Positions 22,228-23,091 of a stretch of DNA of 64,000 bases are shown one piece after another; within the stretch, counting starts at the first letter, position 1; each line of letters begins with the position of its first letter. The DNA lies in assembly GCF_000175575.2 (NCBI RefSeq), contig NZ_CP005986.1, positions 317,549 through 381,548 of the forward strand, in the 5' to 3' direction. The DNA is from Acidithiobacillus caldus ATCC 51756 (GTDB lineage: Bacteria; Pseudomonadota; Gammaproteobacteria; Acidithiobacillales; Acidithiobacillaceae). A model generated the notes under the pieces. The model was not told the origin of the DNA, did no database searches, and saw only the letters and a program-made list of their open reading frames with translations. The position numbers and the translations under genes are program-made.

Positions 22228-22255
22228 TTGGAAAGCGGGACGCAGGCGCTACACT
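22228..22255 (+). promoter_or_regulatory. Possible promoter of the Fpg-like gene
   Basis: TTGGAA, 16-nt spacer, TACACT, ending 29 nt before the ATG. Moderate match to sigma-70. Confidence 0.35.
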
Positions 22256-22284
22256 GGGCCGCGAACTGGGTGCACGAGGTCACT

Positions 22285-23091
22285 ATGGCAGAATTACCAG
22301 AAATAGAACTGTTCCGGCAGAAGCTGCGACGCAACGTGCTGCACAAGCGACTCGGGCTCGTGCAGATGCGCAACGGCAAGGGCGAGATCCAGGACGACGG
22401 TGCCGGCCTTGCCAGTGATGCGCTCAAGGGGCGGGAGATTACCGACCTCTACCGCTATGGTCAGTATCTCTTTTGGGAGCTGGACGGTCGAGAAATCCTG
22501 GTGCTGCAACTGGGGGGTGAGCTCAGCGTGGAGGTGGAGCGCGGCGCGCCAACCCCCGCCGAAGGCGGTGATGAGCCCCGCGCACAGCTGGAGATCCAGA
22601 TCAACGCCCACATGCGCCTGCGTTTGCAGGGTACGCAACTGGGTAACCGACTGCGGCTGCTGGACGAGAGCTCCGATGTGGATTTTCTGACAAAGCTGGG
22701 GCCGGATCCCTTGCTGCTTCCGGATGGTGCCCGCAGTCACCTGCGCGAGGCCCTGGCTCGGCGGCGCAGCGCCCTGCGTAACGTCCTCCTGGACGATGCC
22801 TTCCTCCCGGGGCTTGGTCCCGTCTGGGCCGATGAGATTCTGTTCCAGGCGGGTCTGCGCCCGGATCGAACCGTGCCGACGCTCACTGAGGAGGAGCGTG
22901 AACGCCTGCTGGAGCAGATCGCCAGGGTCATCGAGCGGGCCTTGCGTTCCCAGGCCAAGGTGCCGCTTTTGCCCAAAACCTTCCTCACCCGACACCGTGA
23001 AGATGGCCATTGTCCGGGCTGTGGCGGAGCACTGGAGACCCTGAGCGTGGGCGGGCGCAACGCGCTGTTCTGCCCCGCCTGCCAGCACTGA
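22285..23091 (+). CDS. Divergent Fpg/Nei-family protein lacking canonical catalytic residues
   Basis: 268 residues with the whole Fpg/Nei architecture. The N-terminal domain begins MAELPEIELF, the H2TH region reads ALRNVLLDDAFLPGLGPVWADEILFQAGL, and a C-terminal zinc finger is present (CPGC...CPAC). Family enzymes excise oxidised bases using the N-terminal proline after Met removal (MPELPE). Here that residue is Ala. The Lys57 equivalent (RRAKYLLLEL in E. coli) is Gln60 (YRYGQYLFWEL), the DPRRFG loop is missing, and the H2TH Asn (GVGNIY) is Pro (GLGPVW). Glu3 and the zinc-finger Arg remain. The fold is clear; the activity is doubtful. Confidence 0.85.
   Translation: MAELPEIELFRQKLRRNVLHKRLGLVQMRNGKGEIQDDGAGLASDALKGREITDLYRYGQYLFWELDGREILVLQLGGELSVEVERGAPTPAEGGDEPRAQLEIQINAHMRLRLQGTQLGNRLRLLDESSDVDFLTKLGPDPLLLPDGARSHLREALARRRSALRNVLLDDAFLPGLGPVWADEILFQAGLRPDRTVPTLTEEERERLLEQIARVIERALRSQAKVPLLPKTFLTRHREDGHCPGCGGALETLSVGGRNALFCPACQH

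Follow-up and report, generated by a model that had tools for sequence, protein, structure and literature searches.

The window analysed here, a stretch of 64,000 nucleotides from Acidithiobacillus caldus ATCC 51756, contains an open reading frame that raises a simple question: what does a protein with the whole fold of a Fpg/MutM DNA glycosylase do without the residues that perform the catalysis? The encoded protein, referred to here as pseudo-Fpg (Table 1), begins with MAELPEIELF and combines, in a single chain, the three domains that mark the Fpg/Nei (H2TH) superfamily, namely, the H2TH domain (1.5e-16), the Fapy N-terminal domain (6.4e-12) and the zf-FPG zinc finger (2.2e-5), each scoring above the Pfam gathering score. 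A further Pfam match over the H2TH region, to NFACT_N, stays below its gathering score (19.1 versus 31 bits), and the best two NCBIfam fpg equivalog models give 124.4 and 118.5 bits, short of their cut-offs of 212 and 203.3 bits. The start codon is supported by the GAGG motif 5 nt upstream and by the orthologous reading frames, which are open for only 1-3 codons further upstream, with a stop just upstream in several of them. An AlphaFold2 model based on a 30-row alignment (pLDDT 89.7, pTM 0.87) matches MutM/Fpg structures along its whole length, with a VIA-align Z of 24.1 and an rmsd of 2.8 over 251 residues for MutM (3jr4) and a Foldseek TM-score of 0.80 for Arabidopsis FPG (3twm); it superseded an earlier model from 19 rows with poor domain packing (pTM 0.52).

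A search of the genome revealed two H2TH proteins, pseudo-Fpg and the product of another, intact mutM on the chromosome (C1:498598-499407; L002), which has the motifs MPELPEVE, RRGKYL, LGMSG, DPRRFG and GVGNIYA and is 30% identical to pseudo-Fpg. Comparison with this MutM bears out the first-pass annotation of the locus, which had reported an intact zinc finger and H2TH fold together with the replacement of Pro2, the catalytic Lys and the H2TH Asn (Table 1): both domains are recognised by Pfam and in the model, the four zinc-finger Cys are intact, and the three replacements are seen. In addition, the His and the Met of LHLGMSG are replaced by Gln and Gly, respectively, and the zinc-finger Arg is retained. 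Measured against the residues expected of a bifunctional Fpg/MutM glycosylase, Glu3 is present, and Pro2, Lys57, the Met/Arg/Phe intercalation set and the H2TH Asn are missing.

Table 1. Coordinates of the pseudo-Fpg gene, its domains, exchanged residues and upstream elements in the window, and of the Fpg-fold genes of the f122 genome G264 discussed in the text
Feature	Position	Strand	Description and basis
Possible -35-like TTGGAA	22228..22233	+	Lies 16 nt 5' of the -10-like TACACT; by eye, weak
-10-like TACACT	22250..22255	+	TA[GC]ACT in 27/27 family members examined
Shine-Dalgarno-like GAGG	22276..22279	+	Ends 5 nt 5' of the start codon
Pseudo-Fpg gene	22285..23091	+	268 aa; translation, Pfam domains, orthologues
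Fapy_DNA_glyco N-terminal domain	22285..22626	+	Residues 1-114; Pfam
Codon 2	22288..22290	+	Ala replaces nucleophilic Pro; alignment
Gln60	22462..22464	+	Replaces catalytic/phosphate-binding Lys (RYGQ vs RRGK); alignment
GTQLGN	22630..22647	+	Replaces intercalating DPRRFG loop; alignment
H2TH domain	22696..22953	+	Residues 138-223; Pfam
Pro179	22819..22821	+	Replaces H2TH Asn (GLGPVW vs GVGNIY); alignment
Cys4 zinc finger	23011..23082	+	C243, C246, C263, C266; Pfam, alignment
Fpg-fold loci L070, L099, L130	G264:C11:200687, G264:C10:145060, G264:C11:93607		

An orthologue of pseudo-Fpg, free of inner stops, is present in all 31 genomes of the order that were searched, 29 of them in the family Acidithiobacillaceae and two in a second family, which is presumably Thermithiobacillaceae because NCBI lists only two families in the order. 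The orthologue of the genus mate is 93% identical, and those of A. ferrivorans, A. ferriphilus, A. ferrianus, A. ferruginosus and A. sulfuriphilus are 67-75% identical. By score, 16 of the 18 loci from the search of relatives were orthologues and two, L050 and L051, were distant Fpgs; the former (L050:6001-6807, Erysipelotrichaceae) starts with MPEFAEIE, retains the Lys and the Asn, and has DQRKFG instead of DPRRFG. A second, distant Fpg was found in 29 of the 31 order genomes; in the other two, G017 and G027, completeness is 69% and 85%, respectively. In a class-wide sample of 274 genomes, 35 matched the group profile at 1e-20, and the clear members from beyond the order come from two genomes of family f122 (1.9e-56 and 2.0e-55). 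Three matches at 1e-34 to 1e-38 (G175, G294 and G270) are Fpgs with a short loop, and 27 are weaker (1e-20 to 1e-25), 12 of which, viewed in part, look canonical. A third f122 genome (82% complete) gave no group-profile match at 1e-28. When 398 genomes were sampled from across the phylum, this threshold was passed by G000 and by the short-loop Fpg of G315 alone.

The uniformity of the losses, a point raised in the first-pass annotation, was assessed in a single alignment of 31 order members (including the window protein), two f122 members, seven short-loop Fpgs (from G264, G150, G175, G270, G294, G315 and G721) and 36 canonical rows (34 distinct), in which the order and f122 members constitute the pseudo-Fpg group and counts are limited to the rows readable at each position. 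Lys57 is retained in 0/32 members of the group, which have Q, T, G, A, H, P or N at this position, and in 7/7 short-loop Fpgs and 36/36 canonical rows (34 distinct). Likewise, Met75 is retained in 0/32, 6/7 and 36/36, respectively; Asn169 is P, G, A or S in 33/33 group members and Asn in all seven short-loop Fpgs and all 36 canonical rows; and the His preceding GMSG is retained in one of 32 group members and in 7/7 short-loop Fpgs. Arg109 and Phe111 are absent from all 33 group members and present in 36/36 canonical rows, but their loss would mostly be older than the group, since few short-loop Fpgs retain either residue (Arg in 2/7, Phe in 1/7). The odds of inactivity are unaffected by this caveat because they rest on Lys, Met and Asn.

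The N-terminus, by comparison with the Lys and Asn positions, is less uniform. Among the 29 order members in which it is readable, position 2 is Ala in 27, comprising all 27 readable members of the Acidithiobacillaceae, and Pro in two, and Pro2 is also found in both f122 members; at the position of Glu3, the same 29 members have E (26), D (1) or G (2), with Gly in both genomes of genus g3. The canonical MutMs (34 distinct) and all seven short-loop Fpgs retain both Pro2 and Glu3. A sequencing error at codon 2, which had been considered in the annotation, is excluded by the 27 members with Ala, and the homologues with Pro2, which had been considered as well, do exist in two order members, from G029 and G030, and in two f122 members, from G264 and G150, yet they too are without the Lys and the Asn. 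The reported loss of the DPRRFG loop is also seen, but it is a weak sign: the 11-residue aF-b9 loop is absent both from the pseudo-Fpg group and from all seven short-loop Fpgs, which have Pro2, Glu3, Lys and Asn, and the altered DPRRFG is largely common to the two sets. Little weight was therefore given to these features as a mark of inactivity.

The remainder of the protein indicates a scaffold that was kept. All four zinc Cys are present in 30/30 order members that extend to the C-terminus and in 2/2 f122 members, and every one of the 32 readable group members has Arg or Lys at the position of the zinc-finger Arg. The orthologue at L052 (G029:C5) has an extra acidic C-terminal tail of about 60 residues past the zinc finger that is absent from the other aligned order members. 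The calculated pI is 5.2-7.8 for 11 order sequences (one of them with the acidic tail) and 5.0-5.1 for the two f122 sequences, compared with 8.9-10.2 for eight MutMs and 6.1-10.3 for the seven short-loop Fpgs; charge as proof of lost DNA binding was rejected in view of the latter range. At 47 positions, 14 chosen order members share an invariant residue that is not conserved as such in canonical MutM, and 37 columns, some of them gap columns, show the converse pattern. R86, R122, R124, R159, R192, R218, R221 and R236 make up a new set of invariant Arg residues.

A maximum-likelihood tree was built from 34 canonical, 7 short-loop, 2 f122 and 28 order rows (71 in all), with the canonical rows as the root. 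In this tree, the short-loop Fpgs (support 98/86) are the sister group of a clade that unites f122 and the order (100/98), within which the order is again a clade (100/99). The f122 genome G264 has three Fpg-fold genes, encoding a canonical MutM, a short-loop Fpg and a putative non-catalytic paralogue (Table 1), and G150, also of f122, has three matches at the same ranking places, with the canonical one assigned by rank. The placement in the tree and the three Fpgs in f122 suggest that a duplication within a short-loop-type lineage gave rise to pseudo-Fpg, that Lys, Met and Asn were lost on the stem of the group, and that Pro2 would have been lost later, en route to the Acidithiobacillaceae, and finally Glu3 in one genus.

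The short-loop Fpgs, which are assumed to be active on the basis of their retained residues, possibly represent the BaFpg2 clade (PMC3188539). Two of the seven short-loop loci directly follow a repair gene. In G294, the stop of a gene for a NAD-dependent DNA ligase (L092:2800-5669) overlaps the start of the short-loop Fpg by one base, which is likely a base-excision-repair operon, and in G270, a gene for a PolX-type polymerase with Pol beta and PHP domains (L093:3118-5636) is followed, after 17 nt, by the short-loop Fpg, with an ORF farther upstream that clusters with the ligase of L092. Two ORFs at another locus, L091, had no Pfam match.

Is the gene under selection? Six of the 29 family genomes, with both genes at hand, provided 15 pairs for a comparison with MutM, and in 14 of them pseudo-Fpg has the higher identity and the lower dN; for the genus mate, the values are 93% versus 84% identity and a dN/dS of 0.062 versus 0.137. 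Ten other pseudo-Fpg pairs, 86-98% identical, have dN/dS ratios of 0.037-0.144; for most pairs beyond the genus, dS is near saturation and the ratios are rough. Between the two families, the relation is reversed, and MutM is better conserved than pseudo-Fpg in 12/12 pairs, as it is in the single pair inside the second family. These results may be read as an early phase of rapid change in pseudo-Fpg, after which the protein came under tight constraint. Faster evolution at the former active sites was not found among 16 members (mean entropy of nine sites 1.13 bits versus 1.06 bits overall): the positions of Lys, Asn and Phe are fast, and no variation is seen at Ala2, Gly78 and Leu119 among the 12 family members included. 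At the level of sequence, the pseudo-Fpgs thus form one clade that has kept the fold and the zinc finger, has lost the catalytic residues and is under strong purifying selection.

The gene also seems to have its own promoter, since a TA[GC]ACT element begins 33-52 nt upstream of the ATG in all 27 family members examined; it was not seen within 60 nt upstream in the two second-family or the two f122 members. Regulation by the SOS system was rejected after a strict scan for a LexA-like CTG[TC]-N8-[AG]CAG within 300 nt upstream was negative in 12/12 orthologues, a scan that a lineage-specific box would escape.

What the residue losses mean for catalysis can be judged from a mutational study of Mycobacterium smegmatis Nei2 (PMC11323726). 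In the data given there, wild-type Nei2 cut 93.8% of AP DNA, compared with 3.3% for P2A, 1.5% for K51A and 1.5% for the double mutant, and a trapped adduct was obtained with P2A (6.1%) and not with K51A or the double mutant. The glycosylase activity on 5-OHU, however, was the same for P2A (32.5%) and the wild type (32.4%) and dropped to 0.1% for both K51A and E3A. Thus, Pro2 replacement alone is no proof of inactivity, and the loss of the Lys is weightier, because Nei2 P2A keeps glycosylase activity and K51A does not. Pseudo-Fpg can be regarded, by alignment, as a natural P2A and Lys-loss variant with additional losses, and since the equivalent Lys mutant of Nei2 has neither lyase nor glycosylase activity, a pseudo-glycosylase, not a new enzyme, is the most likely interpretation. 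Together with the absence of Lys and Asn from all readable members of the group, this gives strong inferential support for the loss of canonical catalysis and favours the non-catalytic reading put forward in the first-pass annotation; we infer that pseudo-Fpg would neither excise bases nor cleave AP sites.

The annotation had also envisaged a new mechanism, with NEIL3 as a precedent, and it could be imagined that the N-terminal Ala amine, exposed after Met removal, acts together with Glu3 in an active glycosylase/lyase with altered chemistry. The fixation of Ala2 in the family and the retention of Glu3 in most order members agree with this, as do the full in vitro activity of Nei2 P2A on 5-OHU and the fact that NEIL3 works with Val (PMC11323726). 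Yet the NEIL3 comparison covers Pro2 only, the Lys is missing in every readable member, with any of seven other residues in its place, Nei2 K51A is inactive in both reactions (PMC11323726), both genomes of genus g3 have Gly in place of Glu3, and an intact MutM is encoded in the same genome, so that the altered chemistry appears improbable. The loss of many active-site residues would also fit a functionless mutM copy that is decaying or was mis-sequenced, but this reading was rejected as far less probable still, given the orthologues without inner stops throughout the order, the dN/dS well below 1, a conservation within the family above that of MutM, and the promoter-like element in 27/27 members.

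We consider it somewhat more probable than the reverse that pseudo-Fpg is an old paralogue of the short-loop type that lost its chemistry and was retained for another task, which may include a DNA-bound role. In Fpg enzymes, Asn174, Arg264 and Lys60 are the contacts to the lesion phosphates, the Asn is held steady, in the Bacillus enzyme, by the pair K160-D178, and the H2TH Asn and the zinc-finger Arg are unchanged between BaFpg1 and PrNei (PMC3188539). By our mapping, the counterpart of this pair, R165-D183, is invariant in 19 aligned order members; the scaffold thus appears to be kept and the contact, the Asn, lost. One could imagine that the zinc-finger/H2TH clamp sits on damaged, abasic or structured DNA without flipping or cutting, and that the bound protein protects the site or brings in other proteins of repair. 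A role as lesion reader is plausible, but that pseudo-Fpg still binds DNA and acts as a shield, reader or recruiter is a guess with a slightly better than even chance. The still more specific proposal of a core, order-wide protein dedicated to reading or scaffolding damaged DNA without catalysis (at AP sites, crosslinks or forks), which would steer other repair enzymes and be under tighter selection than MutM, is tentative. Partial precedents exist: a nei2 deletion mutant is relieved of its psoralen sensitivity by the lyase-dead Nei2 variants P2A and P2C, and NEIL3 has been proposed to act as a scaffold without catalysis (PMC11323726); E3A fails in the rescue, and given this failure the authors think that glycosylase activity matters for it (PMC11323726). 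Several observations count against a DNA-bound pseudo-glycosylase: the loss of two of the three lesion-phosphate contacts and the near-neutral or acidic pI argue against strong DNA binding, a wholly idle pocket would need neither a fixed Ala2 nor a mostly conserved Glu3, the former active sites evolve at about the average rate, and the altered DPRRFG and the missing loop are common to the short-loop Fpgs.

The lost phosphate contacts and the charge also leave room for a protein or RNA partner, that is, for an Fpg scaffold that now binds proteins or RNA and has nothing to do with DNA damage. Ribosomal protein S13 and ribosome quality control proteins likewise contain H2TH motifs (PMC8307549), and the missing intercalating residues, the 47 positions invariant in the 14 chosen order members and the NFACT_N match over the H2TH domain fit such a module. 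Nevertheless, it is judged less likely: the zinc-finger Cys and Arg/Lys are kept in every readable member, no operon partner was recognised within the window, and the NFACT_N match remains under its gathering score.

Among known proteins, pseudo-Fpg resembles Fpg/MutM in its whole fold, H2TH, Cys4 zinc finger, LPE start and length of about 270 aa, but it lacks Pro2, Lys57, His72, Met75, Arg109, Phe111, Asn169 and the aF-b9 loop and falls under the NCBIfam cut-offs. With the short-loop Fpgs, its sisters in the tree, it shares the short loop, the altered DPRRFG and a DEILFQ-type H2TH, whereas these retain Pro2, Glu3, Lys, His and Asn (7/7) and Met (6/7). In the PDB, Arabidopsis FPG1 (3twk/3twl/3twm) is the best match in the sequence search (1.6e-22) and also when Foldseek results are ranked by E-value (TM 0.80), but the plant enzyme has Pro2, Lys and Asn in the sequence alignment and no zinc Cys. 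NEIL3 retains the Lys and the Asn. Pseudo-Fpg resembles it in having no Pro at position 2 but lacks both of these residues, and it therefore differs from the NEIL3 type, in which a non-Pro nucleophile is combined with the other active-site residues; NEIL3, with its Val, is active (PMC11323726). Homologues of Fpg that have lost the usual catalytic residues are already known: Fpg2 (Rv0944) of M. tuberculosis lacks the N-terminal ones, but it is truncated, with the N-terminal part missing (PMC2734929), whereas pseudo-Fpg is full length and has the N-domain.

For A. ferrooxidans, one mutM, AFE2758, has been named (PMC2621215), and the titles and abstracts of the open-licence matches listed included no paper on this Acidithiobacillus protein or on a full-length, order-wide conserved Fpg homologue without catalytic residues. 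The sulfur-oxidising Acidithiobacillus bacteria have, next to a normal glycosylase, a highly conserved second protein of the same fold that has lost the cutting machinery and probably serves a new, non-cutting function. The clade unites the loss of two of three lesion-phosphate contacts with strong selection on the fold and with living intermediates that kept Pro2 and lost the Lys, and it thereby opens to experiment the abilities of an Fpg scaffold deprived of its chemistry and the order in which an active site is dismantled.

The genomic neighbourhood supports descent at one place. Both f122 genomes, both second-family genomes and the loci L042, L043 and L046 have, close to the gene, ORFs that cluster with holA of L042, and L043, L089 and L090 have ORFs that cluster with lptE of L042; Pfam confirmed leuS in L042, L088 and L090, holA in L042 and L087, and lptE in L042. 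The ORF picking retained shadow ORFs at several loci, and the absence of a neighbour is thus not interpretable. An informative operon was not found for pseudo-Fpg, and no operon partner was recognised in the window. Both the window and L040 instead have apaG as the neighbour on the upstream side, and downstream in the window follow a rhodanese gene (Pfam) and glnA (named by eye), each with cluster mates in four other family loci.
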